A stretch of DNA of 64,000 nucleotides from Actinoplanes sp. NBC_00393 (GTDB lineage: Bacteria > Actinomycetota > Actinomycetes > Mycobacteriales > Micromonosporaceae): positions 10,096,001 to 10,160,000 of the forward strand of contig NZ_CP107942.1 of assembly GCF_036053395.1 (NCBI RefSeq), written 5' to 3'. This document shows, piece by piece, positions 26,267-41,264 of this stretch (the stretch's first letter is position 1; each line of letters begins with the position of its first letter). The notes beneath the pieces are model-generated. The model did not search any database, was not told the DNA's origin, and worked only from the letters and a program-made list of their open reading frames with translations. Position numbers and translations under genes: made by a program.

Positions 26267-26302
26267 CTTGAGGGCGACGGACGAGTCGGCCTGTACGCCG
26301 GA
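26267..26302. repeat. Left attachment site (36-bp direct repeat, rnpB fragment)
   Basis: Identical over 36 bp to 41,229-41,264, beginning CTTGAGGGCGACGGACGAGT. On the minus strand it reads as the last ~29 nt of rnpB plus a few downstream bases, but no other part of rnpB is here. It is therefore the displaced chromosomal end of the original attB. Confidence 0.9.
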
Positions 26303-26356
26303 CTATGTGCCTGATCTTGCCCGTACGCTGCGGAAACGTCGGCTCCAGGCCCGTCT

Positions 26357-26375
26357 AGGGCGTCGCTAGGGCGTC
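26357..26375. promoter_or_regulatory. Candidate arm-type integrase/Xis sites, left
   Basis: Two TAGGGCGTC copies 11 bp apart lie 55 bp inside the left att repeat and overlap the int stop codon. The same octamer AGGGCGTC occurs four times at 41,110-41,147 inside the right end. Arm-type sites close to both ends are expected for tyrosine integrases; the role is inferred. Confidence 0.5.
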
Positions 26376-27580
26376 AGCGGCTTTTTCGGGTGCCCGAACA
26401 GGGCGTCGATGGCGGTGCGGGTGCGGTCCTCGCTGGCCGGCATGAGGTGGGTGTAGACCCGGAGCGTGAAGCCGGGATCGGCGTGGCCGAGGTAGGCGGC
26501 GAGGGCCTTGATGGTCTCGCCCGCGTCAAGTAGAGCCGAGGCGTAGAAGTGACGCAGCGCGTGCATGCCGGTCGCCCGGCTCCGCTCGATTCCAGCGCTC
26601 TTCAGGGCTGGGTGCCACATGTCCGGATTGAAGTCGCTCCGGTTGATCGCATTCTTGCGGGTCGTGGTGAACACGAGGTTTGCCGTGACCGGCTTGCCCT
26701 TGCCGGGGTCCTCCCAGGGCAGCGTGACGGCCACCGGGGGAACAGCGGCGATGTGCTGCGCGAGGATGTCGGCGATGCTTTCCGGCAGCGGTATCCGCCG
26801 CTCTTTGTCGTTCTTCGGGAGGCCGAAGACGAGCCGGGACCGGACCCGCTTTACCTGCCGCCGGACATGGAGCCAGCCGCCGATGAAGTCGATGTCTTCC
26901 ACGGCCAGGCCGAAGATCTCGCCCTGTCTCAGTCCGCAGCCGCTGCCCACATCCACCATCGGCTGATAGCGGGCCGGGATTGCCGCCCGAATGGCGCGAA
27001 CCTGTTCCAGCGTCCACGGGTCGACCTGGCGTTCATCGGGGCGGGGCGGATCGACTGATTTCGCGGAGCACGGATTCTTGCCGATCCGTTCGTCATCGAC
27101 GGCCGCACCGAGAATCGTGCGTAGGTGGGTGAAGGTCACCGCACGGGTGGCCGGGCCGATCACGTCGACCATCTGAGCGTCCCACTCGCGGATCTGGCCC
27201 GGTTTGATGGACGAGAGCTGACGGTCGCCGAAGTAGGGGTAGAGGTGCCGCCGCACCCTGATTTCGACGCTTTCGCGGGTGGAGGCGTCGAATCGCCGTG
27301 TGCGTAGCCAGGTCTCGGCGAAATCGCGGAACAGCATCTGGCCGGCGGCCGGGTCGATATAGGTGCCCCGAAGTTTGTCCGACTCGATCGAGGTGAGGAA
27401 GTTCTCGGCGGCGCGCTTGGCGCGGTCGGGGAATGACTTCTTTCGTTCCCGCCCGGTGGTGGGGTCGGTGTAGCGCACCCGATACCGCATGCCGACGCCG
27501 TGCAGTTTCGTCTTGACCCGAGTGATCTTCCTGCCGGGTCCGTTGATGGTGTTGAACCATCGATCCTCGATGTGGGCCAT
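26366..27580 (-). CDS. int: Tyrosine recombinase (integrase)
   Basis: A 404-residue phage-type integrase that integrates and excises the element. An N-terminal AP2-like arm-binding region (GVGMRYRVRYTDPTTGRERKKSF) is followed by a SAM-like core-binding domain and the catalytic domain. Catalytic residues are visible: the first Arg in SGCGLRQGEIFGL (~215), HxLRH in MHALRHFYAS (~340), and the GH...Y box in YLGHADPGFTLRVYTHL (nucleophile Tyr ~374). ATG 27580 shares one base with the xis stop codon. Frame upstream of it is spurious. Confidence 0.95.
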   Translation of the reverse strand: MAHIEDRWFNTINGPGRKITRVKTKLHGVGMRYRVRYTDPTTGRERKKSFPDRAKRAAENFLTSIESDKLRGTYIDPAAGQMLFRDFAETWLRTRRFDASTRESVEIRVRRHLYPYFGDRQLSSIKPGQIREWDAQMVDVIGPATRAVTFTHLRTILGAAVDDERIGKNPCSAKSVDPPRPDERQVDPWTLEQVRAIRAAIPARYQPMVDVGSGCGLRQGEIFGLAVEDIDFIGGWLHVRRQVKRVRSRLVFGLPKNDKERRIPLPESIADILAQHIAAVPPVAVTLPWEDPGKGKPVTANLVFTTTRKNAINRSDFNPDMWHPALKSAGIERSRATGMHALRHFYASALLDAGETIKALAAYLGHADPGFTLRVYTHLMPASEDRTRTAIDALFGHPKKPLTP

Positions 27581-27771
27581 TACGCCGCCTGCCGCTGCTG
27601 ACGGAACCACTGGCGGACTTCGTCGGGGTCGTAGCGCAGGTGCCGCCCGACGCGTCCCGCCGGTGGGCCGTAATCGCGTTTGCGCCAGGCGTAGAGGGTT
27701 TGGACCGGGACGCCGAGGTACTGGGAGGTGCGTTCGATCGTCCACAGGTCGTCTGTGGTCGTAGTGGTCAT
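27580..27771 (-). CDS. xis: Excisionase (Xis), MerR/AlpA-like helix-turn-helix
   Basis: A 63-residue winged-helix protein of the excisionase class: LWTIERTSQYLGVPVQTLYAWRKRDYGPPAGRVGRHLRYDPDEVRQWF. The YLGVPVQTLYAWR helix-turn-helix and GRHLRYDPDEV wing are typical. It is immediately upstream of int with a one-base overlap, and its start overlaps the preceding small gene by 4 nt. Confidence 0.93.
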   Translation of the reverse strand: MTTTTTDDLWTIERTSQYLGVPVQTLYAWRKRDYGPPAGRVGRHLRYDPDEVRQWFRQQRQAA

Positions 27772-27974
27772 CGTGGCGGTGTCTCCTTGCGGGTGATGGT
27801 CAGGTAGACGCGTACCTCGCCGGTGTGGCTGGCGGGGTGGGTGCTGGTGCGGCAGATCGCCGTGTCGCCGTAGCACTTGGCGTAGTAGGCGGTCAGGTAG
27901 CGCTTCTGGACGGTGACGGTTTCGGCGGGGCCGATGAGCCGGATCGCGAGCAGGGGGCGGGGTCGGTGGGGCAT
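27768..27974 (-). CDS. Small AICE-conserved hypothetical protein
   Basis: A 68-residue product from ATG 27974, with GAAGGA upstream. It reads MPHRPRPLLAIRLIGPAE...QKRYLTAYYAKCYGDTAICRT...EVRVYLTI, probably a small alpha-beta protein. I know no function; similar short proteins sit between rep and xis in actinomycete elements. It overlaps xis by 4 nt. Confidence 0.7.
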   Translation of the reverse strand: MPHRPRPLLAIRLIGPAETVTVQKRYLTAYYAKCYGDTAICRTSTHPASHTGEVRVYLTITRKETPPR

Positions 27975-28042
27975 GGTGGGTCCTTCCGGGTCGCAGGTGC
28001 TCGGGTTGGTGTGGTGTCGCTGTGGAGTTGTCAAGGAACGGT

Positions 28043-28058
28043 TGACACGTACGTGTCA
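28043..28058. promoter_or_regulatory. 16-bp palindrome, copy 1
   Basis: Perfect palindrome TGACACGTACGTGTCA, overlapping the rep stop codon and upstream of the small gene/xis/int group. Copies 2 and 3 are at 32,756 and 35,155. All three share the 19-bp asymmetric core TTGACACGTACGTGTCAGG. It is a likely binding site for an element regulator or transfer protein. Confidence 0.7.
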
Positions 28059-29633
28059 GGCGGCGAGGGGGTGGACCGTGGTCGCTGGGTCCGGGTCGGC
28101 GTAGTCGAGGTTGTGGGCGTGGCGGCGGGCGGCGTCGGCGGCGCTGTTGGCGAGTAGGGCGTCGCCGGTGGTGATCCAGCCGGTGGCGTGGTAGCCGAGT
28201 CGGCAGACGACGAGGTCGGCTTCTTGGTCGTCCCAGAGGTGGGGGTGGCCTTGGGTGCGGCGCCAGATGACGCGTTCGAGGCGTTTGAAGGCGTAGGTGA
28301 CCGAGAAGCCCCGGCTTTTGGTGGTGATGTGGCCGCCGTGGCCGTACTGGTGGGCGTAGCGGCGCAGCCGTTGCCAGCCGTCGGCGGCGCCGAGTGTCCA
28401 GCAGGCCCGGATCAGCCGGCCGACGTGCGTGGTCGAGTCGGTGTGCAGGTCGACGGCGAGCTGGTCGAGGCGGCGGAAGGTGGAGCCGGTGGCTTCGGTG
28501 CTTTTGGTGACGTACTTGGCGAGGTAGCCGGTGAGTTTGACCAGGTTGGCGTCCGCGCCGGGGGCGTTGATGTGTTTGAGGTCCAGGCCGCGGGTGCCCC
28601 AGCCGATTGGCCAGCCGCCGGGGTGCTCGGGGTGGGCGCGGCTGGTGTAGGCGGTTTTGCGGAACGCGGTGTCCAGGACGCTTTCGAACATGGTGCGGGT
28701 GACCGTCTGGTCGGCGGGGACGATCGCGGTGGGGCAGTCCGGGTGGTAGCCGTCCAGCCGGAAGATCGCGTGGTAGTGCACGACGCCACGGGCCTGGAAT
28801 TCGTAGACCTTGACGTAGCGGCGGCGCAGGGTGACGCCGAGCCGCCGGCCGAGGCGTTCCAGTTCGCGGTCGGCTTCCTGGACGGTGCGGCGCCACAGTT
28901 CCGGGGCTTCGTGGTTCCACACGACTTGGCCGGTGTGGTCGTAGCAGTCCAGGCAGAACGGCACCCCGAGCAGCGGGTCGGTGGTCTTGTGCCGGGTGGT
29001 GCAGCGCATCTCGACACCGTGCGGGCAAGGTTTGGCGAACGGTCGGCAGATCGAGGCGCGGCAGGTGCAGCGTTCCCGGCTGCGGCAGTCAGCGGCGTGG
29101 GTTTTCACGACGCGGTGGTGGACCGGGCCGAAGCTGGGGGCGGTGGCGGTCAGGAAGATTGCGATGTGCTGGTCGAGTGGGGGCAGCCCGTAGCGGTTGC
29201 CTTCCAGTCCGGCGCGGATGATCTGGAAGGTGTCGCGGCGGTACACCTCCGCGCAGGACGGGCAGACGGAGGCCCGGCGGTTGCCGCACGGGGTGTAGAG
29301 GACACCGTCGGGCATGTCGGTTTCGGTGTCGATGGTGTGCATCAGCTGGCCGTCGCGGTTGCGGACGTCGATCTGCCCGGACAGCCGGATCGGGCGGGTG
29401 CAGGCGGCGGCCGCACTGACGTGGCCGAGCCAGTCGTCGAGGTCACCGGAGCGGACCCGGGCACGGGCGGAGACAACCTCGGTCGCGTCGAAGCCCAGTT
29501 GTGAGTCCGGGTCGGCGGGGGCCGGGCTGGTCGTGGTGGGGGCGGCCCACGGCCAGTAGGTCTCGGCGTTCTCCCCCGAGCCCGCAACCAGGGAAGTGGT
29601 TGCGGGTCCGAGAGGCAGCGTCGAGCTGCTCAT
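28056..29633 (-). CDS. Replication initiator protein (RepSA-like)
   Basis: A 525-residue initiator of the actinomycete RepSA type, expected to start rolling-circle replication of the excised element. Visible parts are a Cys-rich N-terminal region (YTPCGNRRASVCPSCAEVYRRD, then CRSRERCTCRAS and CPHGVEMRC), KVYEFQARGVVHYHAIFRLDGY with the HxH-type metal motif, and YLAKYVTKSTEATG. It overlaps the DUF2637 gene start by 4 nt. This gene implies the element replicates autonomously after excision. Confidence 0.9.
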   Translation of the reverse strand: MSSSTLPLGPATTSLVAGSGENAETYWPWAAPTTTSPAPADPDSQLGFDATEVVSARARVRSGDLDDWLGHVSAAAACTRPIRLSGQIDVRNRDGQLMHTIDTETDMPDGVLYTPCGNRRASVCPSCAEVYRRDTFQIIRAGLEGNRYGLPPLDQHIAIFLTATAPSFGPVHHRVVKTHAADCRSRERCTCRASICRPFAKPCPHGVEMRCTTRHKTTDPLLGVPFCLDCYDHTGQVVWNHEAPELWRRTVQEADRELERLGRRLGVTLRRRYVKVYEFQARGVVHYHAIFRLDGYHPDCPTAIVPADQTVTRTMFESVLDTAFRKTAYTSRAHPEHPGGWPIGWGTRGLDLKHINAPGADANLVKLTGYLAKYVTKSTEATGSTFRRLDQLAVDLHTDSTTHVGRLIRACWTLGAADGWQRLRRYAHQYGHGGHITTKSRGFSVTYAFKRLERVIWRRTQGHPHLWDDQEADLVVCRLGYHATGWITTGDALLANSAADAARRHAHNLDYADPDPATTVHPLAA

Positions 29634-30544
29634 CTGGCGGCTCCGATCACAGAGCCGTTGTGCGGCCGGGTGGTGGCCGGCACGGTTGGGTTGTCGGTGA
29701 GGTGGGTGAGGATGTCGGCGGCCTGCGTGCTCGGCACGCGCAGCCGGACAGCGAGTTGGTTCGGGTTGATGTCTTCGCCGTGGGTGTCGCGGTGCGAGGC
29801 GGCGATGGTCCGGGCGTTGTTCAGCAGCGGTTGCGGGTATCGCGTCACCGGGACAGCCGGGGCCGTCAGCGCAGGCGTGGGCGTCGGGGCTGGGGCAGGT
29901 TCTGCTGGTGCCGGGGCGGTGGTCTTGCGGGCCGGGGTCCGTGCGGGTGTCTTCTTCGCCGGGGTGCTCTTCTTGGCGGGTGTGGTGGCCCTGGTCTTCT
30001 TGGGTGCGGCGGCCGGGCGGACGCTCACGCGCTCGGTGTCGGATGACGTGGCGGGTGAGGTGGCCGGCGTGTCAGCCGTGACCGGGTTGGTGGGCCGGGG
30101 TGTTGCGGTGGCGGTGAAGACGAGCTTGGACAGGCCGAGGAAGGCCAGCGCGGGCAGGGCGGAGACCACCCAGCCGGAGACGCCGGGCTTGGCGACGGCG
30201 AGCTGTGCGGTGAGCGAGAACAGCACCGCGCCGAACAACAGGACCATCGGGTAGCCGACCTTGGCGTGCGGGTCACGGCGACGGCGACGGCCGATCTCGA
30301 TGATGGCGGCGGTCGGGATCAGTTCGGAGATGACCGCGTTGGCCCAGCCGAACCATTCCGGGGTTCCGGTCGGGCTGTTGTCGAGCGTCCAGTCGTGGAC
30401 GTGGGTGAACGAGGCGGCGCCGGCCATCAGGCCGACGAGCAGGACGATGACGATCAGGACGAGGAACTGGATCGTGTCGACAGAGTTCCGCCTGCGTGAG
30501 GCGGTGGGCACGGTGGCGTCCAGCTTGGACGCGGCGGTGGTCAT
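29630..30544 (-). CDS. DUF2637 (SpdB-like) transfer-associated membrane protein
   Basis: A 304-residue protein with about four TM helices in the first 160 residues (VLIVIVLLVGLMAGAASF, ISELIPTAAIIEIG, VLLFGAVLFSLTAQLA, VVSALPALAFLGLS). A long Ala/Pro/Lys/Thr-rich linker follows, then a C-terminal helical module (ARTIAASHRDTHGEDINPNQLAVRLRVPSTQAADILTHL) that looks like a small winged helix. DUF2637/SpdB proteins help intramycelial plasmid spread and contact the FtsK-like Tra protein. It overlaps both neighbours. Confidence 0.85.
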   Translation of the reverse strand: MTTAASKLDATVPTASRRRNSVDTIQFLVLIVIVLLVGLMAGAASFTHVHDWTLDNSPTGTPEWFGWANAVISELIPTAAIIEIGRRRRRDPHAKVGYPMVLLFGAVLFSLTAQLAVAKPGVSGWVVSALPALAFLGLSKLVFTATATPRPTNPVTADTPATSPATSSDTERVSVRPAAAPKKTRATTPAKKSTPAKKTPARTPARKTTAPAPAEPAPAPTPTPALTAPAVPVTRYPQPLLNNARTIAASHRDTHGEDINPNQLAVRLRVPSTQAADILTHLTDNPTVPATTRPHNGSVIGAAR

Positions 30545-30768: not shown

Positions 30769-30782
30769 GGCTGGTGGTCCTT

Positions 30783-31244
30783 TCAGACGAGGGTGTTGGT
30801 CAGGGCGGTCAGGACGGCGAGGACGACAGCACCTCGCATCAGGTCGGTGGCGAGCCGGATGAGCCGGTATTTGCGCTGCACGGAGCGCGACAGGCTGATC
30901 AGTTGGTGGGCTTGGTAGGCCGCGTGTTCGCGGTCGGTCTGCTCGAACTCGGTGAGCAGGGCGGAGATGGTGGGCGCTGCGGCCCAGCGGACGAATCCGT
31001 GGTTGCCGCGCAGCGCGGGCCGCACGGCGGTCATCAGCAAGATGACGGCAGCACAGATGGTGGCGACCGTGAGGACGGCTGTAGTGGTGGCCGGGCCGGT
31101 CAGCGGGACTTTGGCGATGATGGCGACGCCGACGGACGCGGCGGTCAGGGAACCGGCGAGCAGCATGGCTGCTTTGGTGTCGATGCGGCCCATCTGGGCG
31201 TTGACGTCGGTGATGGCGGTGGTGAGGTGGTCGGTGGTGGTCAT
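30783..31244 (-). CDS. Pycsar-effector-like (PycTM) membrane protein
   Basis: A 153-residue membrane protein resembling the PycTM effector domain of Pycsar antiphage systems. The N-terminal helix carries the family-like DxKAxxLL segment (GRIDTKAAMLLAGSL), followed by two TM helices (LLAGSLTAASVGVAIIA and AVLTVATICAAVILLM). A cytoplasmic helical region and a third hydrophobic segment near the C-terminus complete it. In Pycsar, a dedicated pyrimidine cyclase makes cCMP or cUMP that triggers membrane disruption. No cyclase gene is visible in this element. It overlaps the next gene by 4 nt. Confidence 0.65.
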   Translation of the reverse strand: MTTTDHLTTAITDVNAQMGRIDTKAAMLLAGSLTAASVGVAIIAKVPLTGPATTTAVLTVATICAAVILLMTAVRPALRGNHGFVRWAAAPTISALLTEFEQTDREHAAYQAHQLISLSRSVQRKYRLIRLATDLMRGAVVLAVLTALTNTLV

Positions 31245-31675
31245 GCGTAGACCTCCGGATCGAGTGGGACGACGGCGATCACGCCGTCGCAGCTGTCGCA
31301 GAAGACAGGGACAAGGCGCAGGTCAGCGAGATCGCTGACCAGTTCGGTCGGGGTGTTGTAGGTCGCCGGGTAGACGGCGGTGCCGTCGCAGTCGCCGCAG
31401 GGCAGCGTGCAGACGGGGCAGGATTCGAAGAGTTCGCCCAGGGCGTCATGGCGTCCGGCGGGCATGATGTGGTCGATGCAGAACCGGCAGTGGTGCTGCC
31501 GGAGATGGGATTGCGCCCACGCCAGGGCTTGCGCCCAGGTGGCGAAGGCGTCGAGCCAGGTCGTGTGACTGGTGATCTGGCAGCAGGGGCAGGACGCCTC
31601 CCACGGCCGTTCCGGGGCGAAGAAGCCCTGAGGGTTGAAGGTGATGCGGACGCGCTGCTCTTGGAGAAGGCTCAT
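31241..31675 (-). CDS. Cysteine-rich multi-zinc-ribbon protein
   Basis: A 144-residue protein with at least four Cys pairs: CPCC, CRFC, CPVC...CGDC and CDSC, each plausible for zinc binding. Between them is WLDAFATWAQALAWAQSHLRQHHCRFC. Its ATGA starts overlap neighbours on both sides. Family not recognised; nucleic-acid or protein binding is a reasonable guess only. Confidence 0.65.
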   Translation of the reverse strand: MSLLQEQRVRITFNPQGFFAPERPWEASCPCCQITSHTTWLDAFATWAQALAWAQSHLRQHHCRFCIDHIMPAGRHDALGELFESCPVCTLPCGDCDGTAVYPATYNTPTELVSDLADLRLVPVFCDSCDGVIAVVPLDPEVYA

Positions 31676-32796
31676 TGGGCACTTCCCGAGGAGGCGCAGT
31701 CGAGGCAGGCGCCGGTGCGGCGCGGGATGTAGTAGGTCTGAAGCTCTCCGCACTTGGGGCAGGTCCGGCGGGCGGCGAGTGCCCGGCCGACGGCGGCGAG
31801 CTGGGCGGGGCTGGCCGTGCGTTTCGCGACGGCGAGGTCGATGCGGTACAGGTAGGCGACGCGGTCGCCGCGACGCCACATGATCTGCGCGGCGATCTCC
31901 TGTCCGCCGGGACGAAGGTTCTGTTCGCGCAGTTGGCGGCGGGTGGCGAGGCCGGTCGGGGCCATCCGGAACGGATAGGTGGGCAGGCCGTACCGCTCGC
32001 CGGTGGGGTCGTAAAAGTGCATCGGATCCTCCGGAGTGGAATCGGCCGGCACGGTGTCGGCCTGGTCGTCGCCGTGGTCACACGGCTGGCCGAACGTCGG
32101 GAAGACGTAGGTGTCGCGGTCGATGTCCTCGGGCAGGAACGCCGCCGCGCAGACGGCGCAGACGATCGGGCCTTCCTGGAAGGCGGTCACCGAGAGGCGG
32201 ATCTTGCGGGGGCACTCGCACTCGCAGGAGACGCCGTTGTTGTTGTTCGTGCGCTCTTTGCCGGGGCCGAAGACCTCGGGGTGGCGGTAGACGGTGAGCG
32301 CGGCGTCGAGGCTGCCGATGATGTCGGCGTAGTCGAGGGCGGCCTGGTCGGTGAGGGTGCACGGCGAGTAGCCGAGCTTGTCGTCCTTGCGGGCTGAGAG
32401 GCCGAGTTCGGCGGCGAGGGTGGCGAATTTCTTGTTGTGCCACCGGCCCTGCCGAGAGGTGTCCTGGACACCACGGGCGTCGGCGAGGCCGTGGGTGGCC
32501 TCGTGCAGCAGAGTCACCAGGATCTCGGCGGGGCTGCGTTTGAGTCCTTCGCCGGAGATCAGGACCTCGGGGAGTTGCCGGTCGCCGTGCTGCCAGCGCA
32601 GGGACGCGAAGTGGCCCCACTTCATCGCGGCGTTCGGTTTGGCCGGCGAGCCGGAGCCGACGATCAGGACGGCTTCCGGGACCTCAGAGTGCCGGGCGCG
32701 GATCGCCGCCCACGCGGATTCGAGAACAGCCAGGAGTCCGGCCGTGGTGAACGGTTGACACGTACGTGTCAGGTCGGGGATTACGGGGGTGGTCAT
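31672..32796 (-). CDS. SprT-like zinc metalloprotease with C-terminal RRQL/zinc-ribbon domain
   Basis: A 374-residue two-domain protein. The N-terminal ~230 residues contain the SprT-like HExxH site (LVTLLHEATHGLADARG, then GRWHNKKFATLAAELGL). The C-terminal ~110 residues hold a module with RRQLREQNLRPGGQ, AYLYRIDLAVAKRT, ARRTCPKCG and a final CLDCA, a zinc ribbon. That module is duplicated as a separate gene directly upstream (32,800-33,204). GGGAGG precedes ATG 32796. The 16-bp palindrome copy 2 lies inside codons 9-14. Possible roles are DNA-protein crosslink processing or anti-host-defence; both are inference. Confidence 0.75.
   Translation of the reverse strand: MTTPVIPDLTRTCQPFTTAGLLAVLESAWAAIRARHSEVPEAVLIVGSGSPAKPNAAMKWGHFASLRWQHGDRQLPEVLISGEGLKRSPAEILVTLLHEATHGLADARGVQDTSRQGRWHNKKFATLAAELGLSARKDDKLGYSPCTLTDQAALDYADIIGSLDAALTVYRHPEVFGPGKERTNNNNGVSCECECPRKIRLSVTAFQEGPIVCAVCAAAFLPEDIDRDTYVFPTFGQPCDHGDDQADTVPADSTPEDPMHFYDPTGERYGLPTYPFRMAPTGLATRRQLREQNLRPGGQEIAAQIMWRRGDRVAYLYRIDLAVAKRTASPAQLAAVGRALAARRTCPKCGELQTYYIPRRTGACLDCASSGSAQ
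32756..32771. promoter_or_regulatory. 16-bp palindrome, copy 2
   Basis: Same TGACACGTACGTGTCA palindrome, here 25-40 nt downstream of the metalloprotease start codon, where it encodes part of LTRTCQ. A site just inside a coding start is well placed for repression of transcription or translation. Confidence 0.7.
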
Positions 32797-32799
32797 GGT

Positions 32800-33204: not shown

Positions 33205-33383
33205 GCGGCGGCCCTCCGAGCGGAGGTGCGGCCGGTGAAGAAGTGCAGTTCGACGTCCGCCGGCACCGGCTCAGGGGTGCTCAGGTCCAGTTCGCGGGAG
33301 TAGCCGAAGCCCTGATCGGGTGTGGTGGTGTGGCGGCAGCGGCCGCAGATCCAGGCGGCGGCGGTGAGGGTGGCGGTGTTCAT
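33201..33383 (-). CDS. Small zinc-ribbon-like hypothetical protein
   Basis: A 60-residue product from ATG 33383 with one CGRC pair (AAWICGRCRHTTTPDQ) and an acidic middle. It overlaps both neighbouring genes by 4 nt, which is the main support for its being real. Confidence 0.6.
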   Translation of the reverse strand: MNTATLTAAAWICGRCRHTTTPDQGFGYSRELDLSTPEPVPADVELHFFTGRTSARRAAA

Positions 33384-33913
33384 CGGCGGGCCGCCAGCCA
33401 GGCGAGGAAGCCCTCGCGGGTGGGCCACGTTTCGGCCCAGGCGCAGGAGTCGGCGTAGGTTTCGAGATCGTCGGGGGAGGCGTGCGCCCATTCGAATTCG
33501 TCGGCGGCCGCCCGCAGGGTGGCGATGACGTTCTTGGCGGTCTGGTTGCCGTTGTCGTTCCAGTCGACGATTCGGTTGAAGCCGTCGAAGCAGGTCGGGC
33601 CGCAGTCGTAGCTGACGCTGGTTCCCGCGTCGCTGAGGTAGTTGATGAGCCATCCGGCAGCGCGGCGGCAGTCACCGAGGGTTTCGAGACGCTCGGAGGT
33701 CGGGAAATCGGTGCGGCGGCCGTGAGCGGCCATACCAATCGCACCGAGGGCACAGGCGGCCGGGAAAGCGCCGAGACCGGCGTAGTAGTCGTTGCGGGTC
33801 CAGCCTCGAAGTTCGAGGTAGTGGGCGGCTCCGCGCAGGGTGTCGGCCGGGGTCACCGTGATTTCCGTGGTGGTGTCGGCGGCGGAGCTGGTCGGGTTTT
33901 GGGTACGGTGCAT
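33380..33913 (-). CDS. DUF6197-like protein
   Basis: A 177-residue protein resembling the DUF6197 family of actinobacterial elements. It reads TLRGAAHYLELRGWTRNDYYAG...ACALGAIGMAA, followed later by NRIVDWNDNGNQTAKNVIATLRAAADEFE. The GW..., Ala-rich helix and WND..N segments are the family pattern. Function unknown. ATG 33913 overlaps nothing upstream; a 113-nt gap before it holds no gene I can support. Confidence 0.7.
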   Translation of the reverse strand: MHRTQNPTSSAADTTTEITVTPADTLRGAAHYLELRGWTRNDYYAGLGAFPAACALGAIGMAAHGRRTDFPTSERLETLGDCRRAAGWLINYLSDAGTSVSYDCGPTCFDGFNRIVDWNDNGNQTAKNVIATLRAAADEFEWAHASPDDLETYADSCAWAETWPTREGFLAWLAARR

Positions 33914-34026: not shown

Positions 34027-34215
34027 TCAGCGGTTATTGGCCGCGTACTTGGCGAGGTGCCGGCCGACCGGTCCGTAGGGGCAGCGGCGGCAGGTCACGG
34101 TGTTGCGGGTGAAACGGTGCGGTTTGCGCCAGGTGCCGCAGGCGGTGCAGCGGACCGCGATAGCGCGGCCGTGCCGGTCACGGCGTACTCGCGGGATCAG
34201 TGCGGTCTTGGTCAT
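34027..34215 (-). CDS. Small basic zinc-finger-like protein
   Basis: A 62-residue protein rich in Arg and Lys with two Cys pairs: VRCTACGTWRKPHRF and TCRRCPYGPVGRHLAKY. It probably folds as a zinc ribbon and may bind nucleic acid. The start overlaps the FtsK-like gene's stop by 4 nt. Confidence 0.7.
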   Translation of the reverse strand: MTKTALIPRVRRDRHGRAIAVRCTACGTWRKPHRFTRNTVTCRRCPYGPVGRHLAKYAANNR

Positions 34216-35060
34216 GCGACGGTCCTCAGTTCGGCTTCGAGTTCCGCGCGGCCGCGCCGGATCCAGGCGGAGTAGTCGGCGACGCGGATGATGTCGGCGT
34301 TGCTCAGGTAGGCGCCCTTGACCAGGGCGGGGATGCCGCCTTCGGCGATCAGGAAGCCGCAGCCCTGGTTGTTCGGGTCGACGGTGTTGCTGCTGTAGCC
34401 GCGGGCGGCCCAGCCGTGACCGAGGACGATGTCGGAGGACACGTCGGTGGTGCAGCGGCCGGCGAACCGCCAGGCGAACAGGTCGCGCAGGCTGGTCGGG
34501 ATGATGTCCGAGCTGGGGCGCTGGGTGGCGGCGATGACGATGATGCCGACCGCGCGGCCCCGGGCGACCAGGTCGCGCAGCAGCGAGTAGAACCGTTTCT
34601 GGTCCTTTTCCTCTCCGGCCGTGGCCGAGAAGTAGGCGATCTCATCGACTGCGACGAGGATCGCGTTGAACGCGTCGTTCGGCGCGAACTTCTGCCGGCG
34701 CACCGAACGCAGGAACGCGTACCGGTTGTCCATGACCGTTTGCAGGCGTTCCAGGGTGAGGATCGCCAGATCCAGGTCCGGGCCGACGAACACGTCGGCG
34801 CAGTCCTCCCACAGGCCGAGTTCGACCTGTTTGCCGTCGAGCAGGCACAGGCTCACGTCATGGCACAGCGCGGCGGTGCCGACGATGGTGTTCAGCAGCG
34901 AAGATTTTCCGGCGCCGGGCTCGCCGCCGATGAGCATGTTGCGGTAGATCAGCGGCAGGTAGACCGGGTGGCCGAACTCGTCGAGGCCGAGGAACACCGG
35001 GTCGAAGATGGACATCAGGGTGCCGACCGGGATGCTCGGCCGGGCGAATGGTGGAGACAT
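34212..35060 (-). CDS. FtsK/SpoIIIE-type DNA translocase (Tra ATPase)
   Basis: A 282-residue ATPase expected to pump double-stranded element DNA between hyphae during conjugation. Walker A is GGEPGAGKSS (residues 45-54), Walker B AILVAVDEIAYF with D139/E140, and IVIAATQRPSSDIIPTSLRDLFAWRFAGR is the FtsK signature region. It has no TM helices; these are in the upstream gene, so the Tra function is split. ATG 35060 is preferred because family similarity starts there. Palindrome copy 3 is about 95 nt upstream. Confidence 0.92.
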   Translation of the reverse strand: MSPPFARPSIPVGTLMSIFDPVFLGLDEFGHPVYLPLIYRNMLIGGEPGAGKSSLLNTIVGTAALCHDVSLCLLDGKQVELGLWEDCADVFVGPDLDLAILTLERLQTVMDNRYAFLRSVRRQKFAPNDAFNAILVAVDEIAYFSATAGEEKDQKRFYSLLRDLVARGRAVGIIVIAATQRPSSDIIPTSLRDLFAWRFAGRCTTDVSSDIVLGHGWAARGYSSNTVDPNNQGCGFLIAEGGIPALVKGAYLSNADIIRVADYSAWIRRGRAELEAELRTVA

Positions 35061-35154
35061 GGCGCGGTGGCTCCGATCGGACAGGAGGTGGTGGGTCCGG
35101 CGTGACGCTGGTGACGACAGGTCGAGGCCACGCCGGAGCACCGGTGGAAGGGTT

Positions 35155-35170
35155 TGACACGTACGTGTCA
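35155..35170. promoter_or_regulatory. 16-bp palindrome, copy 3
   Basis: Same TGACACGTACGTGTCA palindrome in the 117-nt gap between the membrane protein gene and the FtsK-like gene, 8 nt from the stop codon of the former. Confidence 0.7.
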
Positions 35171-35177
35171 GGAACGG

Positions 35178-36101
35178 TTAGGCGTAGTCGCTGTTGTCGA
35201 TGCCGTCCGAGGACGGCTCCGGCGGGCGCGGGCGGCGCGGCCGGGTGTTGGTGTCGGGTGAGCGGCGGGAACGCTCCGGGACGTCGGCGAGGTTCACGCC
35301 GGTCGGCGGGGCGGCCGGGGAGACCGGCGCGGTGGCCGGCATGCTGTCCGGAACGTGGTCCGGCAGGCTCGACAGCACGGTGTCCGCCAGGGTGTCGCGG
35401 CGGGTGATGTCGAAGCGGATCAGCGCCGCGTACTTACGTGAGGCGCGGTTGACGCGGATCTCGTTGGCCCAGCAGGCGACTGCCAGTTTCGACAGTTGGC
35501 CGGGCTGTTCCAGGTCGTGCATCGACAGGCCGGGACGCAGCCACACCCAGACCCGTTCACCGGCCGGGGTCGGCCGGGCGAGCAGGATGAACGGCAGCGT
35601 GCCGTGCCGGTTGGTGGCGATGAACGCGGCGAAGCAGGTCCGCAGCCGGTGCCGCACGGTCAGGCACCAGTACACCGACATCACACCGATCCGGATCACC
35701 CGGACCAGCCCGACAGCCGTGCCGACCGTGACGACCAGGCCGAGCGAGAGCCACAACGGGGTGGCCATCATCAGCCACGTCCAGCCGTAGACCAGGAAGC
35801 CGCCGAGGATCACCTCGGGCAGCCACCACCAGACGATCCGCAGGATCGGCCAGACCAGAACCAGCGCGCCGAAAGCGGCGCCGGTGAACACGCCGAGCGC
35901 GATACCGGTCAGCAGGCCGAGGATCGGATGGATGTAGTGCGAGGCGACCGTGCCGGCCAGAACGCCGACGATGGCCAGGGTGACCCAGAACGTGATCTTC
36001 GCCTTGCGGCGCTGGGAACGAGCCATCGGGGCCTCGATGACCGTGACGGTCTGACCCTTGCTGTTTCCGCCGGTCAACGTGCGGCGGGTAGACTTGGACA
36101 C
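35178..36101 (-). CDS. Membrane partner of the FtsK-like ATPase
   Basis: A 307-residue protein with about four TM helices in residues ~35-150 (FWVTLAIVGVLAGTVAS, ILGLLTGIALGVFTGAAFGALVLVWPIL, VILGGFLVYGWTWLMM, LWLSLGLVVTVGTAVGLV). A cytoplasmic domain follows (PFILLARPTPAGERVWVWLRPGLSMHDLE...CWANEIRV) and then a Pro/Arg-rich tail. This is the layout of the N-terminal membrane and linker part of FtsK/TraSA-type proteins, here encoded separately from the ATPase. It probably forms the membrane pore or anchor. Confidence 0.8.
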   Translation of the reverse strand: MSKSTRRTLTGGNSKGQTVTVIEAPMARSQRRKAKITFWVTLAIVGVLAGTVASHYIHPILGLLTGIALGVFTGAAFGALVLVWPILRIVWWWLPEVILGGFLVYGWTWLMMATPLWLSLGLVVTVGTAVGLVRVIRIGVMSVYWCLTVRHRLRTCFAAFIATNRHGTLPFILLARPTPAGERVWVWLRPGLSMHDLEQPGQLSKLAVACWANEIRVNRASRKYAALIRFDITRRDTLADTVLSSLPDHVPDSMPATAPVSPAAPPTGVNLADVPERSRRSPDTNTRPRRPRPPEPSSDGIDNSDYA

Positions 36102-36738: not shown

Positions 36739-36751
36739 GTACTCTGTTGTG

Positions 36752-36985: not shown

Positions 36986-37162
36986 CGCTCCATCACCCCC
37001 TCTGTGTGGGTTCCCCTCAACGTCATCAATTCAACGTGACGTGCGGATCAAGTCGCCAGAACTGGTGCCGAACTGGCACTGCACTGCACATGCACGAGGC
37101 CCGCGACACATAGGTCGTCGCCTCTACACTCGCGACTGAGATCACTCAACGTGGGGGAGAAG

Positions 37163-38362
37163 GTGCTGGTCGTAACAACATGGCACGGCGACACAGCCGC
37201 TGCCCTCCGCCTAGCGCTCCGGATGACATGCGAAGAGTTCGCAAACCATCTCGGAGTCTCGGGGCGTGGCGTGTCCAAGTGGGAGGCCAACCCGGGGACC
37301 GAGCTGTCCTTAAAGACTCAGCAGCTGCTCGATACCGCCCTCCGGCTAGCGGCGGACGATGCCCAGGCGCGATTCGTGCAGTTGCAGGCAGAGCGATCGA
37401 CTAGCCAAGCCGCAACAGCGGACAGCCCGACCATCGAGCTGCCGACGATTCAACCAGCGAGCATCGCGCCTGGCATGGTGTCTTCTCTCGGCGAAGGTCT
37501 ACGTCATCACTACACGGCTGACAACCTGCTCGGCCCGCGGGTGCTCTTGCCAGTGATCGAGGCTCAGGCGAACGCGATTGAATCACTTGCCAGGAACGCA
37601 GGCGGCCAGACGCTAACGGATCTGCTTCAGGTCGGCGCCGGCTACGCCGAGTTTGCGGGATGGCTCGCGCAGGACTCGGGCGAAGCTGCTGCCGCAACGG
37701 GCTGGTATCGCCGAGCGCTTGAACTTGCCGAGGCAGCTGGGGACGACCGGATGGCGGGGTTCGTACTCATGCGTCGCGCGGTGCAAGCAATCGGTGCCCG
37801 GCAAGGCAGGCATGCGGCCCAGATGGCGCATGCCGCACAGCGAAGTGGTGATCCTTCGACTCTTCGCGTCCGAGCCATCGCAGCTCAGATGGAGGCAGTC
37901 GGCTATGCCGTCGACGGGATAGCGTCTGAAGCCGACCGGGCACTCGATCTGGCCGAGTCCGTGTTGGCAGACAGCCAGACGGCAGAACCTGAGATCGGGG
38001 ATCCATCGATCAGTCGCTATTGCGACCTCGGTCTGTACCTGGACATCACCAGAGCAAAGTGTCATCTGGAGTTGCAACGCGGCGATGCTGCTGTCGAAGC
38101 ATTCGCCAAGGTCCTTGACGCGTTGCCACCTGAGTATCACCGTGACCGGGGGCAGTACCTCGGGCGCCTCGCGCAGGCCTACGTGCTGTCCGGAGCGCCG
38201 GCGGAGGCGTGTTCGACGGCGGAAGAGGCACTAGCCATTGCCGTCGGCACGGGTTCGTCTCGTACCATCAAGGACCTACAAAGCTTGGTGCGGCAGTTGG
38301 AACCCTGGTCACAGACCGCGCCGGTCGTGAAGCTCCGAGCCCTGCTGGTGAGCACGAAGTGA
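37163..38362 (+). CDS. XRE-family regulator with TPR-like domain (cargo)
   Basis: A 399-residue protein: N-terminal XRE HTH (LRLALRMTCEEFANHLGVSGRGVSKWEANPG), a low-complexity linker, then helical TPR-like repeats (AATGWYRRALELAEAAGDDRMAGFVLMRRA, AYVLSGAPAEACSTAEEALAIA). GTG 37163 follows GGGGGAGA closely; GTG 37151 is an alternative. It lies 16 nt upstream of the PP2C-like gene, so the two likely form one unit. It differs in sequence from the chromosomal XRE/TPR gene at 16.6 kb. Confidence 0.82.
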   Translation: MLVVTTWHGDTAAALRLALRMTCEEFANHLGVSGRGVSKWEANPGTELSLKTQQLLDTALRLAADDAQARFVQLQAERSTSQAATADSPTIELPTIQPASIAPGMVSSLGEGLRHHYTADNLLGPRVLLPVIEAQANAIESLARNAGGQTLTDLLQVGAGYAEFAGWLAQDSGEAAAATGWYRRALELAEAAGDDRMAGFVLMRRAVQAIGARQGRHAAQMAHAAQRSGDPSTLRVRAIAAQMEAVGYAVDGIASEADRALDLAESVLADSQTAEPEIGDPSISRYCDLGLYLDITRAKCHLELQRGDAAVEAFAKVLDALPPEYHRDRGQYLGRLAQAYVLSGAPAEACSTAEEALAIAVGTGSSRTIKDLQSLVRQLEPWSQTAPVVKLRALLVSTK

Positions 38363-38378
38363 CGGAGGTACCCGCCGA

Positions 38379-39200
38379 GTGTTCGCTCTAGCCACCGATG
38401 CCGCGCCCGGTCGTCCCAACGAGGATTTCGTTGTGGCAACCCCGGAGATCGCCGTAGTCGTTGATGGTGCTGGCATCCCATTCGGGGGGTGCCTTCATGG
38501 CGTTGCCTGGTACGCCCAGCAACTTGGCGTGCAAACACTTTCGGCCCTGGTCGAAAAGCCAGGCATCGCTCTGAATGAGGGACTGGCCATCGGGATCGCG
38601 GCGGTTGCAGACCTCCATCGTGACACCTGCGACCTGAGCAATCCCGGAACGCCCTGTGCGGCCATTGGGATCCTGCGGATTGGCGAGGACCAGGTCGACA
38701 CGCTGGCGCTGTCTGACGTGAGCATCGTCGTCGATCTCGAATCTGGGCCGGAGGTGACGTGTGACCTCTCGATCGAAGAGATCAGCGGCACCGAGCCGGA
38801 CGCGGTTGCTGGATTCGTGTTCGGTTCCGAGGGGCATCAGGCTGCATTGGCCGGCCTAGTTGCGAGACAAACCGCCACCCGTAACCGGACAGATGGCTGG
38901 TGGGTGGCAGCGGCAGATCCTGAGGCGGCTCATTTTGCCCACGTGAGCAGCTACCCCAGATCCGCCATGGTCCGTGCCAGCGCTTTCAGCGACGGTGCAA
39001 CCCGTCCGGTCGACCAGATGCGTTGCTATGAGTGGAGCGCATATCTCGATTTGCTCGACAAGATTGGCCCAGCCGGTCTCATCGGGCAGGTCCGCGCCAT
39101 CGAGACCGCTGATCCAGATGGTGAGCGGTTCCCGCGGACTAAGCGTCACGACGATGCGACTGTTGCTCAGTACCAGGCCGGTCTGACCTTCAGTTCATAG
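38379..39200 (+). CDS. PP2C-like phosphatase family protein (cargo)
   Basis: A 273-residue protein with PP2C-like landmarks: PNEDFVVATPEIAVVVDGAG at the N-terminus (Asp in VDG), a central LALSDVSIVV strand, and RHDDATVAQYQ near the end (the DDxT/S metal motif). The middle is divergent, and some metal-binding positions may be missing, so activity is unsure. GTG 38379. Paired with an XRE/TPR regulator, it may form a small signalling or regulatory cassette. Confidence 0.72.
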   Translation: MFALATDAAPGRPNEDFVVATPEIAVVVDGAGIPFGGCLHGVAWYAQQLGVQTLSALVEKPGIALNEGLAIGIAAVADLHRDTCDLSNPGTPCAAIGILRIGEDQVDTLALSDVSIVVDLESGPEVTCDLSIEEISGTEPDAVAGFVFGSEGHQAALAGLVARQTATRNRTDGWWVAAADPEAAHFAHVSSYPRSAMVRASAFSDGATRPVDQMRCYEWSAYLDLLDKIGPAGLIGQVRAIETADPDGERFPRTKRHDDATVAQYQAGLTFSS

Positions 39201-39628
39201 GCTTCGAGGCGTCGGGTAACGGCGTGTGGACGGACGTGGCTGCCTGTTCAGCTTTTGTGAGAAGTTTCTATACGGGTTCAAGGCGGCCCGCTTCGCGGGC
39301 CGCTCGCGCCGCCCAAGCAGGGCCGGGCAGAGCCCGCCACGACGCCGCCGGCTTCGCCTTGGCGTCGTGGTTGCAGCCCTGCGGCAGGCGCGATACGCGA
39401 AGAAGCCCCGGGTCGCCGAAGTAGCAGGCAGTCCGGGGCTTGAGGTTTCTCGGTGGCATGACGCCTCAGGCGGGGTGGCGTCAATCCCGTCACCCTTCGT
39501 CCGGGGCCTTGGCTCCACCACGAAGGCCGACCGGACGGGGGGCCGATCGTACTTCTGGCGCTGCTAGGTGGGGGGACCCCGAGGTGCCAGAGCATCGGCT
39601 TGTGGACCCTCGCCCTCTTGGAAGGATG
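39201..39628. other. Hairpin-rich non-coding stretch of the element
   Basis: No supported gene in 428 bases. Three strong inverted repeats are present: GCGGCCCGC/GCGGGCCGC with a 3-nt loop (39,283-39,303), CCACGACGCC/GGCGTCGTGG (39,337-39,370), and AAGCCCCGG/CCGGGGCTT (39,403-39,441). They could be transcription terminators or single-strand origins needed for rolling-circle replication or transfer. Confidence 0.6.
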
Positions 39629-40024
39629 CTAGAAGGGAGGCTCATCGTCGAACGGGCTCGCCTCGACCTCGATCTGAACTTGATCTCCGACCGTCACCAG
39701 GATCAGGTTGCGACCGGCGTCAGTGAAGTCATCTGTAATCTCCTTCAACCGTCGCCCGCTGAACGTTACTGATCCTTTTTGGTCCTGGTAGTCGGTGACG
39801 GTAGCTACAGAGAGCTTCGGTTGTACATGTGTAACTCGGAAGTTCAAGATCGGCACTCGTACGATTCCTAAAATTTCTCCCGAGTCGGGGTCTTTGATTT
39901 CGTTAATTTGGAGTAGCTTTGCGCTGGCGCCTACTGCCACACCTGAATCTGATCCCATGTTCAGGGCAATCATATGGTGAGTCAGGATCCTAGCGACCTT
40001 AGCATTCAGCTTGATCTTACTCAT
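39629..40024 (-). CDS. FlgT-C-like beta-barrel protein
   Basis: A 131-residue protein from ATG 40024 (a second ATG at 40030 is in frame): LNAKVARILTHHMIALNMGSDSGVAVGASAKLLQINEIKDPDSGEILGIVRVPILNFRVTHVQPKLSVATV. The pattern of a beta barrel with GS..GV..G, DP.SGE.LG and VT.V..K.S.A is that of the FlgT C-terminal/SH3-like domain. It overlaps the upstream membrane coiled-coil gene by 8 nt. The DNA is distinctly more AT-rich than its surroundings, suggesting recent acquisition. Function unknown. Confidence 0.7.
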   Translation of the reverse strand: MSKIKLNAKVARILTHHMIALNMGSDSGVAVGASAKLLQINEIKDPDSGEILGIVRVPILNFRVTHVQPKLSVATVTDYQDQKGSVTFSGRRLKEITDDFTDAGRNLILVTVGDQVQIEVEASPFDDEPPF

Positions 40025-40727
40025 CTGCAACCTCGCCGATCTCCAATGCCTTTACCTGCTGCCAAAGCTGGGGAAAGTATGAATCTTGCACTTCATAGGT
40101 TTCGAGACGAACCTTTGAGGGTGCGCTCTCATCGTATGGGGCTCGGTCCCGTAGGTGGCTCCAAAACTTCGGCGAAAAATCTTCGATGCAAGATAAGTGC
40201 ACGACTTGCCTCAGCTCGTCAACATGGACGACCTCAACAGCCCCCTTTATTGCATCGGCGACTTGGCCTACGACCAAGAAGCGTGTTCCCGGCTGAGGGA
40301 CTATTCCACTAGGCTCGAAGTTGGCAAAAATGGCTAATTGTCCTTGTGATTCTGCAATACCAATTATCTCGGGTGGTGGAACCTCCTGCGAAAGAAGCGC
40401 ACCAAGTGCCTGTGCCCTACCCTCTTTGAGCCCAAGCAGAAAGATTTCCTTGGCTCGATGCTCTGCTTGCGTGAGCTCAGCGGTCAACTTCGCGACTCGT
40501 TGTTCACCCTCGCTCGCCTTTTGTTCCAGCAGTGAGAAATCCCGAAGCTTGGTCGCGGTGTCCACTATCTTTTTGAAAGCGATGGGGGCTGCTCCTAGGG
40601 CTAGAGCAACACCTACGACGATGAAGAAGACTGGCTCCCAGTGAAGCTGAGCGGCTCCTAAGTAGAGGCCGACAACGCCGGCCAAGGAGAGCGCCCACGT
40701 CCAGAAGCGTTGAAGAAAGTCTTTCAA
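40017..40727 (-). CDS. Membrane-anchored coiled-coil protein
   Basis: A 236-residue protein: two TM helices (WTWALSLAGVVGLYLGAAQL and VFFIVVGVALALGAAPIAF), a coiled coil (KLRDFSLLEQKASEGEQRVAKLTAELTQAEHRAKEIFLLG), then a soluble alpha-beta domain (GQLAIFANFEPSGIVPQPGTRFLVVGQVADAIKGAVEVVHVDE). It is the first gene of an AT-richer two-gene module with the FlgT-C-like protein. Family not recognised. The layout of a membrane anchor, signalling coil and sensing domain would suit a defence or stress module, but that is speculation. Confidence 0.7.
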   Translation of the reverse strand: MKDFLQRFWTWALSLAGVVGLYLGAAQLHWEPVFFIVVGVALALGAAPIAFKKIVDTATKLRDFSLLEQKASEGEQRVAKLTAELTQAEHRAKEIFLLGLKEGRAQALGALLSQEVPPPEIIGIAESQGQLAIFANFEPSGIVPQPGTRFLVVGQVADAIKGAVEVVHVDELRQVVHLSCIEDFSPKFWSHLRDRAPYDESAPSKVRLETYEVQDSYFPQLWQQVKALEIGEVADE

Positions 40728-41228
40728 CGGGAAGATCCACCCTTGATCAACTCGGCGGAAGTGAGCCAGTAGAGGCTACAGCATTGCTGCGACGTGTGCT
40801 TCCCTGCAAAGCGCACCCTTCCACCTGGGTCCATCGACTTCCCTAGCTCGGCGTCGGCCGTTTTATCAGCTGGCATGCCCTCGCCGGGCGGGCAGGCTCC
40901 CGGGATGAGAAGGACTTCGTTCCCTCACGGTGACATCCGTGAGGTCAGAGTCATCCCGGTCGCCTGCCCAGAGGGATGCCAGCCCACCGCCAGGGCGTCA
41001 AACGGTGGGGCTGTTTGACGCCCTGGCGGTGGCCCAGCATGGCGAAGCCCAGGCGACCGGGATGACTCCTCGGGTAGTGGTATGGCGCCCGGCCTGGCGG
41101 CCCCGGTCCAGGGCGTCCCCAGGGCGTCAGGGCGTCTCTAGGGCGTCGGACGCCGACCAAGGTCGGCCAAAGTTGACCAACAACACCTAGTAATAAGGAG
41201 AGGTCAGCACCCTCGCGGCGGTCGTGAC
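40728..41228. other. Non-coding right end of the element with nested inverted repeats
   Basis: No supported gene in 501 bases. Structures, from left: CCTCACGG/CCGTGAGG (40,924-40,945); an outer 19-bp pair GAGTCATCCCGGTCGCCTG (40,949) and its complement at 41,050-41,068; and an inner 20-bp pair at 40,984-41,003 and 41,013-41,032 around a 9-nt loop. The inner arms contain AGGGCGTC. A ~120-nt cruciform of this quality suggests an origin, oriT/clt-like or recombination site. Confidence 0.75.
41110..41147. promoter_or_regulatory. Candidate arm-type integrase/Xis sites, right
   Basis: Four direct AGGGCGTC copies at 41,110, 41,121, 41,129 and 41,140, about 80-120 bp inside the right att repeat, mirror the two copies at the left end. 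Confidence 0.55.
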
Positions 41229-41264
41229 CTTGAGGGCGACGGACGAGTCGGCCTGTACGCCGGA
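41229..41264. repeat. Right attachment site (36-bp direct repeat, rnpB 3' end)
   Basis: Identical to 26,267-26,302. It covers the last ~29 nt of rnpB, including the 3' strand of helix P1, plus 7 nt beyond. The integration thus leaves a complete rnpB on this side. Confidence 0.9.

Follow-up and report, generated by a model that had tools for sequence, protein, structure and literature searches.

Actinoplanes sp. NBC_00393, a soil actinobacterium, carries a 15-kb mobile element at the extreme 3′ end of rnpB. The window analysed here, the whole stretch of 64,000 nt, contains a complete class A RNase P RNA gene at 41240..41652 on the minus strand, its 3′ end lying at 41240. The Rfam model RNaseP_bact_a (RF00010) matches 41652–41240 over model positions 1–367 (270.9 bits, E = 2.6e-87), so that the covariance-model check proposed in the initial annotation returned a full-length match, and this is the sole RF00010 match in the host genome, a single contig of 11.43 Mb. 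A perfect 36-nt direct repeat, 95% identical when extended to 43 nt, bounds the element. Its rnpB-side copy (41229..41264, −) comprises the final 25 nt of rnpB (41240–41264), covered by the RNase P model match, and 11 nt downstream that this match does not reach. The integrase-side copy (26267..26302, −) is an isolated rnpB 3′ terminus whose left side abuts the ancestral downstream flank. The initial annotation had placed a complete rnpB at the right copy and a fragment at the left one, and its coordinates are correct to the base. A 35-nt part of the repeat, with up to three mismatches allowed, occurs at these two places only; none of 100 shuffled sequences contained two. The sole tRNA gene of the window is at 12579, and the insertion into a tRNA 3′ end that is usual, though not defining, for AICEs is absent here.

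The genes between the repeat copies identify an AICE, as first annotated, through matches to PF00589, PF20199 (RepSA), PF01580 and PHROG 66. Nearest the left copy is int (26366..27580, −), which supplies the site-specific integrase, a tyrosine integrase of 404 aa from its likely start (PF00589, 67.7 bits, E = 1.4e-18; PF14659; PHROG 1, E = 4.3e-60). A start at 27580 is more likely than one at 27745, because xis (27580..27771, −) ends there. The latter gene encodes a 63-aa excisionase-like HTH protein, assigned as the AICE excisionase through PHROG 66 (E = 1.2e-8); its TIGR01764 match (E = 5.2e-4) is under that model's cut-off. The autonomous replication initiator is the pSAM2-type repSA (28056..29633, −), with 402 bits against PF20199 (E = 4.9e-120) and 259 bits against NF041486, under the equivalog cut-off of 700. 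An operator-like repeat, TTGACACGTACGTGTCAGG, lies at 28036..28060, with other copies at 32749–32773 and 35148–35172 (84%). The tra gene (34212..35141, −) encodes an FtsK/SpoIIIE-type, TraB/TraSA-like double-stranded DNA translocase (PF01580, 61.8 bits, E = 8.6e-17), which scores 22.9 bits against the TraB equivalog NF041214, far under its cut-off of 800. All four of these genes are open and of ordinary length. The int, xis, rep and FtsK-like genes of the initial annotation are thus borne out by profile matches, whereas its SpdB-type gene is a weak candidate: the product of 29630..30544 (−) matches DUF2637 with E = 0.005, under cut-off. We take DUF2637 to be a mark of SpdB proteins.

The remaining minus-strand genes encode a PycTM (2-TM) protein (30783..31244; PF18967, E = 1.6e-12; PADLOC PycTM, E = 2.6e-10), an RRQRL-motif CxxC zinc-binding protein (31672..32796; NF041638, 132.8 bits, cut-off 65), a DUF6197 protein (33380..33913; PF19698, E = 3.7e-25) and a protein that looks by eye like a membrane protein (35178..36101; no Pfam match), conserved at 64–72% identity in the sister elements of genomes G063, G005, G019 and G018. 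On the plus strand lie an NsdA-family HTH-TPR regulator (37151..38362; NF053720, 186.5 bits, cut-off 75) and a cargo protein that is PP2C-like by eye only (38379..39200; no Pfam match), with an 81% identical copy in the element at G005:C30. The cargo end holds two low-GC minus-strand ORFs at 39629..40727 (39629–40030 and 40017–40727), the first matching PHROG 27728 (unknown function); GC is 0.54–0.56 in the windows spanning 39.5–41 kb.

Relatives retain the site in its empty form. At 12 of the 35 congeneric rnpB loci examined, rnpB passes straight into sequence homologous to the left flank, with no interruption, which supports the left copy as a displaced rnpB terminus; the initial annotation had made its reading depend on such a junction. 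Homology to the relatives' rnpB ends at query positions 430–439, and the repeat ends at 436. The full-length rnpB, the perfect 36-nt repeat and the empty sites together support attB being the 3′ end of rnpB and the flanking direct repeats being the product of attP × attB recombination. The repeat could instead stem from homologous recombination or partial rnpB duplication, with the AICE genes merely lying between the copies, and dispersed rnpB 3′ ends are indeed known in relatives. We consider this very improbable: the left copy starts 63 nt beyond the stop codon of int, an arm site lies in that interval, the layout recurs across several genera, and in relatives the homology to rnpB breaks off where the repeat ends and the flank resumes.

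Both sides of the attachment core carry candidate integrase arm sites. The P′-type arm (41110..41228) contains four AGGGCGTC sites (GACGCCCT on the minus strand) at 116, 127, 135 and 146 nt from the core, together with an inverted repeat, AGGTCA...TGACC (41202–41229), that adjoins the rnpB-side attachment repeat. Two more AGGGCGTC-type sites fall within a 56-nt imperfect inverted repeat at 40948..41068. In the P-type arm (26303..26407), sites at 26357, 26368 and 26400 lie 63, 74 and 106 nt from the core, the latter two overlapping the end of int. These distances are fixed across five elements: subsets of the spacing are common to the window, G063, G005, G049 and G019 (shifted by 8 nt in G019). 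GACGCCCT arms are lacking from the terminal regions of four elements (G081, G164, G167 and G123), from the int side of G049 and from the rnpB side of G078.

The layout, in which a complete rnpB faces a spare 3′ terminus across the element and both arms hold repeated GACGCCCT sites, is best read as that of a 15-kb pSAM2-like AICE whose lambda-type tyrosine integrase recombined attP with the rnpB 3′ end, a reading that we hold, from sequence comparison, with a probability of roughly 0.93. Int would bind both the rnpB-like core and the arms with their GACGCCCT sites, and Xis would drive excision. RepSA would replicate the excised circle by a rolling-circle mechanism, the FtsK/TraB-like protein would carry it as double-stranded DNA from one mycelium to another, and Spd-like proteins would promote spreading. 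The rnpB 3′ end would thereby play the role of the tRNA 3′ end in other AICEs. Nearly every potential host has this conserved end, and insertion rebuilds it, so that the host would pay little.

The ribozyme end itself bears on that cost. Nine pairs of helix P1 were tested, half of which are rebuilt by the repeat, and in 38 of 38 rnpB genes, element-bearing or other, every one forms a Watson-Crick or G-U pair; we therefore reject the idea that insertion harms the ribozyme. P1 is wholly Watson-Crick at 7 of 10 element or remnant loci and at 17 of 28 others, which include G054 and G023 despite their element-like rnpB flanks, and the two groups show no clear difference. The remaining helices, that of the window's own rnpB among them, have one G-U wobble each (two in one genome) and no mismatches. 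Insertion does replace the downstream flank, or trailer, of rnpB, as initially annotated; an effect of this on rnpB 3′ processing is a conjecture. The replacement trailer may fold. In an alignment of 12 rnpB-adjacent arms, one tandem arm (G063b) and one dispersed copy (G054disp), 91.1% of cells pair in a hairpin whose covariation score was reached by 2 of 500 shuffles, the structure having been derived from the same alignment on which it was scored. Two pair- or type-counting measures were reached by 49 and 42 of 500 shuffles, and z-scores for single sequences reach only −1.5 and −1.2. These values are suggestive of a conserved folded trailer; an inverted repeat acting at the DNA level would look alike.

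The element is no one-off; it falls within a widespread group of integrases associated with rnpB. An integrase of this type adjoins an rnpB 3′ fragment in 9 of the 67 genomes of the genus; the complete rnpB lies 7.6–16 kb away on the same contig in seven of the nine and on another contig in G018 and G056. The initial annotation had suggested looking for related integrases at rnpB elsewhere in Micromonosporaceae, and among the best 30 integrase places in 354 family genomes, 25 have an rnpB fragment (23 within ∼1.5 kb downstream, plus G018 and G049). No fragment was found at the other five, of which G255 offered only 370 nt. Nor was the rnpB core found in the DNA examined from the close relatives L011, L014, L021 and G021, so specificity may shift or the fragment may be lost. 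In the single-contig genome G087, rnpB-end elements stand in tandem at ∼16-kb spacing; compared with a fourth copy, the stretches are 100% identical in two and 99.8% in one. These near-identical copies point to recent activity of the element family. An old AICE, once mobile but now fixed, would leave the rnpB repeat as a fossil, and such a history would fit both the low-GC cargo end and two decayed relatives that occupy this site, one with an internal deletion (G019) and one with a 73-aa int remnant (G013). It is nonetheless unlikely for the window's element, in view of its open int, xis, repSA and tra, its perfect repeat and the tandem copies at rnpB in G087.

Beyond the family, an rnpB end lies near a tyrosine integrase in G380, from another actinobacterial family, and in seven uncultured viral contigs; some phages apparently share the landing site. 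The occurrence of the same core beside integrases on viral contigs could mean that the present element is not an AICE but a prophage or a satellite. This is extremely improbable given RepSA, the FtsK-type Tra and the NsdA-type regulator, and no virion protein was matched in the ORFs scanned with Pfam, NCBIfam and PHROGs, a set that covered only part of the small ORFs. Two short rnpB 3′ queries found no convincing match in named actinophages. In two unannotated gut phage records, 30 of 30 nt aligned with an rnpB 3′ query at 93.3%.

The proposal that every extra rnpB end is an AICE attachment site was rejected. Among 13 dispersed rnpB 3′ copies whose surroundings were read, one (G005:C30) is part of a complete AICE, and for a second (G185 C2:3433992) an integrase and a tRNA-Lys lie 7–8.5 kb on; tblastn found no integrase in the DNA read around the others. 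PF00589 matches occur 11 and 22 kb from two dispersed copies in G103. Two copies lie inside ORFs reading SGVQVDSSVA, and some may therefore be coding. The ends of the G005:C30 element, whose neighbour we take to be a methionine synthase gene, have similar arm-like stretches and nothing more; no direct repeat of at least 15 nt shared by the ends was found, one repeat lying 4.8 kb outside.

On a 52-row integrase tree (40 of 80 loci and 12 other rows; the rnpB case L025 excluded), the rnpB label clusters: it requires 6 changes where shuffled labels require 16.2, and none of 500 shuffles gave so low a number. The starred branches force at least three changes, and the rnpB integrases do not form one clade. 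The very long G185c row distorts the drawn root. A single origin of rnpB specificity is not claimed, as a single change occurs in 0% of 200 bootstrap trees. We tentatively propose, at somewhat less than even odds, a wider reading in two parts: that rnpB is a third actinobacterial structural-RNA landing gene, beside tRNA and tmRNA, for several AICE and temperate-phage integrase lineages, and that the AICE attP arm supplies a conserved folded trailer that replaces the native rnpB 3′ flank and leaves 3′ maturation intact.

The locus extends the landing sites of conjugative elements to a ribozyme gene that is essential and is not a tRNA gene, and it accounts for some of the duplicated rnpB 3′ ends seen in genomes of Micromonosporaceae. 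It also offers a candidate site-specific integration system, consisting of int, an attP of ∼300 bp and an attB in nearly every genome of the genus. Elements at rnpB ends would escape island finders restricted to tRNA and tmRNA genes. The role of tRNA-like structure in target choice becomes testable: the end of tmRNA is tRNA-like, and unlike the target of tmRNA prophages the rnpB end has no such likeness. This favours the view that what matters is a gene end that is conserved and is rebuilt.

Among the matches listed from the CC-licensed literature, none was seen to describe an attachment site in rnpB; the available text of five papers refers to rnpB or RNase P RNA in other contexts (PMC8776855, PMC2705793, PMC10763512, PMC10383233, PMC3541175). 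A non-tRNA parallel is with tmRNA (ssrA) prophages, for example at attB-11 of M. abscessus, where a structural RNA gene likewise serves as attB (PMC8092301); the main text of that paper, as available, contains neither ‘rnpB’ nor ‘RNase P’. As in the available descriptions of pSAM2 and pSAM2-type AICEs, which measure 10.9–13.6 kb, an int-xis-repSA module stands beside one attachment site, the attP identity segment is flanked by arm-type repeats, and attB is the 3′ end of an RNA gene (PMC3364876). For example, pACPL of Actinoplanes sp. SE50/110 is 13.6 kb long, with a 43-nt identity segment, a tRNA-Pro target and two 21-nt arm repeats (PMC3364876). The present element differs from pSAM2 and pACPL in targeting rnpB rather than a tRNA gene and in its arm motif. 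It shares an integrase, replication functions and an FtsK-type translocase with the tyrosine-integrase AICEs of Ghinet et al. 2011, whose accessible main text lacks the term ‘RNase P’, places the vast majority in tRNA 3′ ends, with the pSLS integrase sub-family as the exception, and already records AICE tandem arrays (PMC3218068). In Streptomyces, the part of the survey available lists 36 AICE insertion sites in tRNA genes, 14 in protein-coding genes and 1 that is intergenic, and the rnpB-end elements resemble those Streptomyces AICEs with switched integrases in that elements sharing a site exchange modules, accrete and decay there (PMC9513070).

The source genome of the window, a single contig of 11.43 Mb, contains one RF00010 match genome-wide: a complete rnpB on the minus strand (41652–41240, model 1–367, 270.9 bits). 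The initial annotation had placed an RNase P RNA gene in the 41,200–41,700 region, and the covariance model matches there at full length. The terminal 25 nt of rnpB and the 11 nt downstream (41229–41264) recur as a perfect second copy at 26267–26302, and the element and repeat coordinates annotated earlier were exact on rechecking. Three tandem 60-nt repeats lie immediately upstream of the rnpB 5′ end (41738–41920).

For the empty-site comparison, a script concatenated the rnpB body, repeat and left flank, and the composite was compared with 35 congeneric rnpB loci. An uninterrupted junction between rnpB and the left flank in relatives, on which the initial annotation had made the proposed insertion depend, was found at 12 of the 35: the rnpB match stops at query 430–439 (the repeat ends at 436) and left-flank homology resumes downstream in the same orientation. 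Two further loci (G016, G062) have the flank inverted, seven hold the element or a remnant (G005, G013, G019, G049, G056, G063, G081), and the remainder show no homology to the window's left flank downstream of rnpB. One of the 12, in G023, may be a scar because a stretch judged by eye to resemble an element arm follows its rnpB. Three others (G015, G053, G077) encode related integrases elsewhere in the genome, away from rnpB. In G015, ∼765 nt separate rnpB from the resumed flank, versus 417 nt in the window; the intergenic stretch itself is therefore not conserved.

Across the genus, rnpB is present in 66 of 67 genomes; G017, a one-contig assembly, gave no RF00010 match on repeated searching, and G068 gave only a partial one (model 20–305). 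Second, divergent RNase P RNA-like genes occur besides normal rnpB at G023:C1:6401882-6402248 and G073:C119:688-1046 (loci L138, L265, L175); they score 220.8 and 216.9 bits, respectively, and are 83% identical to each other.

The element's gene content is that of an AICE. The criterion of Ghinet et al. combines an integrase, a replication initiator and an FtsK-type translocase (PMC3218068). Reading inward from rnpB, two low-GC cargo ORFs are followed on the opposite strand by another cargo protein and an NsdA-type HTH-TPR regulator. The rnpB-strand set then encodes a probable membrane protein, an FtsK/TraB-like translocase, a DUF6197 protein, an RRQRL zinc-binding protein, a PycTM protein, an SpdB-like candidate, RepSA, a small ORF, Xis and Int, whose stop codon lies 63 nt from the isolated repeat. 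The int, xis, rep and FtsK-like genes first annotated are all present, and the SpdB-type gene stands only as an SpdB-like candidate. The PycTM (Pycsar-effector-like 2-TM) protein is encoded at 30783–31244; none of the scanned ORFs matched a cyclase family. A palindromic repeat, TTGACACGTACGTGTCAGG, occurs three times (two copies identical, one 84%): at 28036–28060 ahead of the xis-side ORF, at 32749–32773 close to the RRQRL gene start and at 35148–35172 ahead of tra. It may be the operator of an element regulator.

Related integrases adjoin rnpB ends in other genomes. Among the 80 best of at least 578 confirmed integrase loci in named genomes, an rnpB 3′ segment lying downstream of int with at most 2 of 23 mismatches was found in 16, all among the first 25, from Actinoplanes, Winogradskya, Jidongwangia, Micromonospora, Pseudosporangium and Asanoa. 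The other 64, mostly Streptomyces, have no rnpB segment in the DNA examined; three of them (L063, L070, L072) carry look-alikes with 5 mismatches, left uncounted. Within the genus, an integrase match at E ≤ 1e-60 occurs in 22 of 67 genomes, nine of which (G000, G063, G005, G019, G078, G081, G018, G056, G049) have an rnpB segment beside it. At E ≤ 1e-120, matches occur in 76 of 354 family genomes, with five candidates scored per genome; 23 of the best 30 places have an rnpB segment within ∼1.5 kb downstream, and separate comparisons found one for G018 and G049, also among these 30. G063, G005 and G018 have a backbone in common with the window (repSA 74–81%, tra 61–79%, smaller genes down to 39%), as does the internally deleted element of G019. 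Backbones are intermediate in G056 and Asanoa locus L013 (tra 63–65%, repSA 41–46%), while G049, G081 and the Micromonospora elements combine related int-xis with tra at 29–31% and no repSA match. This pairing of related int-xis with differing tra and repSA indicates that the recombination module moves between backbones.

The attachment-site arms contain short repeats. In the window, the distances of GACGCCCT copies to the core are 116, 127, 135 and 146 nt on the rnpB side and 63, 74 and 106 nt on the int side; base composition predicts about one copy per whole element. Subsets of this spacing are kept in G063, G005, G049 (rnpB side only) and G019 (offset by 8 nt), and G078 has one copy near its ends, on the int side; none was found near the element ends in G081, G164, G167 and G123. 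AGGGCGTC occurs 15 times in the window versus 5.8 expected (0/100 shuffles as high). Other repeats follow integrases that lack an rnpB segment (for example GACGGCCT in L021 and G021; ACGGCCCA in L018, L121 and L122), and two such loci, L011 and L014, retain GACGCCCT. As with the lambda and pSAM2 integrases, we infer that these repeats serve as arm-type binding sites.

Several loci point to accretion, decay and exchange. In G087, a single contig, rnpB-end segments recur after rnpB, spaced 16.07, 15.94, 16.07 and 32.07 kb apart, probably a tandem array of near-identical AICEs (G087:C1:3882822-3963358; L303-L306). It would comprise five units, the last gap counting as two from its length. Against a fourth stretch, two of those compared (3284 and 3358 nt) are 100% identical and another (5220 nt, 12 gaps) is 99.8% identical. 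The int gene in the first unit is split across frames, and an assembly error in the array is possible. In G063, three rnpB-end segments come after the complete rnpB, together with an int remnant, and the elements of G013 and G019 are decayed. A second AICE in G005 has a related backbone (tra 58%, repSA 75%), 81% identical cargo and an integrase only about 50% identical; the rnpB core is kept with no adjoining rnpB. This is most simply explained by a change of integrase in which the former attP core stayed in place; such switching is described for Streptomyces AICEs (PMC9513070).

The exact 22-nt rnpB end is present in 276 of 354 family genomes (78 lack an exact match), with at least two copies in 97 of the 276. 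The extra ends are not attachment sites in every case. Ends far from rnpB occur at G005:C30:47060, G185 C2:3433992 and G185 C1:220483, and in G179, G103, G107, G105, G163, G054 and G066; some of them resemble remnants of earlier rnpB attachment sites whose element had exchanged its integrase. At class level, 68 of 394 genomes match the 22-nt end. Outside the family, the match table gives two copies in 11 genomes, three of which were examined. In G380, rnpB is accompanied by an integrase matching a Streptomyces one at 41%, and two more rnpB ends lie 14.6 and 15.8 kb off. An integrase-like match lies 4 kb from rnpB in G499; the second copies of G499 and G634 lie at a long distance from rnpB, with no integrase detected beside them.

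In IMG/VR, the 22-mer occurs in 12 stretches on 11 contigs, seven with a tyrosine integrase within ∼300 nt, 25–38% identical to the window's; one of the seven (L212) also carries a complete rnpB. The rnpB end adjoins the integrase in several gene orientations (L207, L209, L210, L211, L212, L215, L217/L213). The contig of L213 and L217 has the 22-mer at both ends and encodes tape-measure, tail, virion and endolysin genes. On the other contigs the scan covered one non-integrase ORF each in L211 and L215, with no virion match; the phage status of these other contigs is taken from the collection.

Judged from sequence, insertion rebuilds the mature RNase P RNA, and the nine P1 pairs tested are intact in 38 of 38 rnpB genes. 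An AGGTCA...TGACC inverted repeat is conserved on the element side within 40 nt of rnpB (91.1% of alignment cells paired, both-side changes in 5 cells) and may represent either an RNA trailer or a DNA site.

Neither AICEs nor attB sites at RNA-gene 3′ ends are new, and tandem accretion and integrase switching are likewise known. Among the papers listed by searches of the CC-licensed PMC literature, none was seen to describe rnpB as attB. A broader proposal, plausible and readily tested, is that phages share rnpB with these elements as a third RNA-gene landing site.
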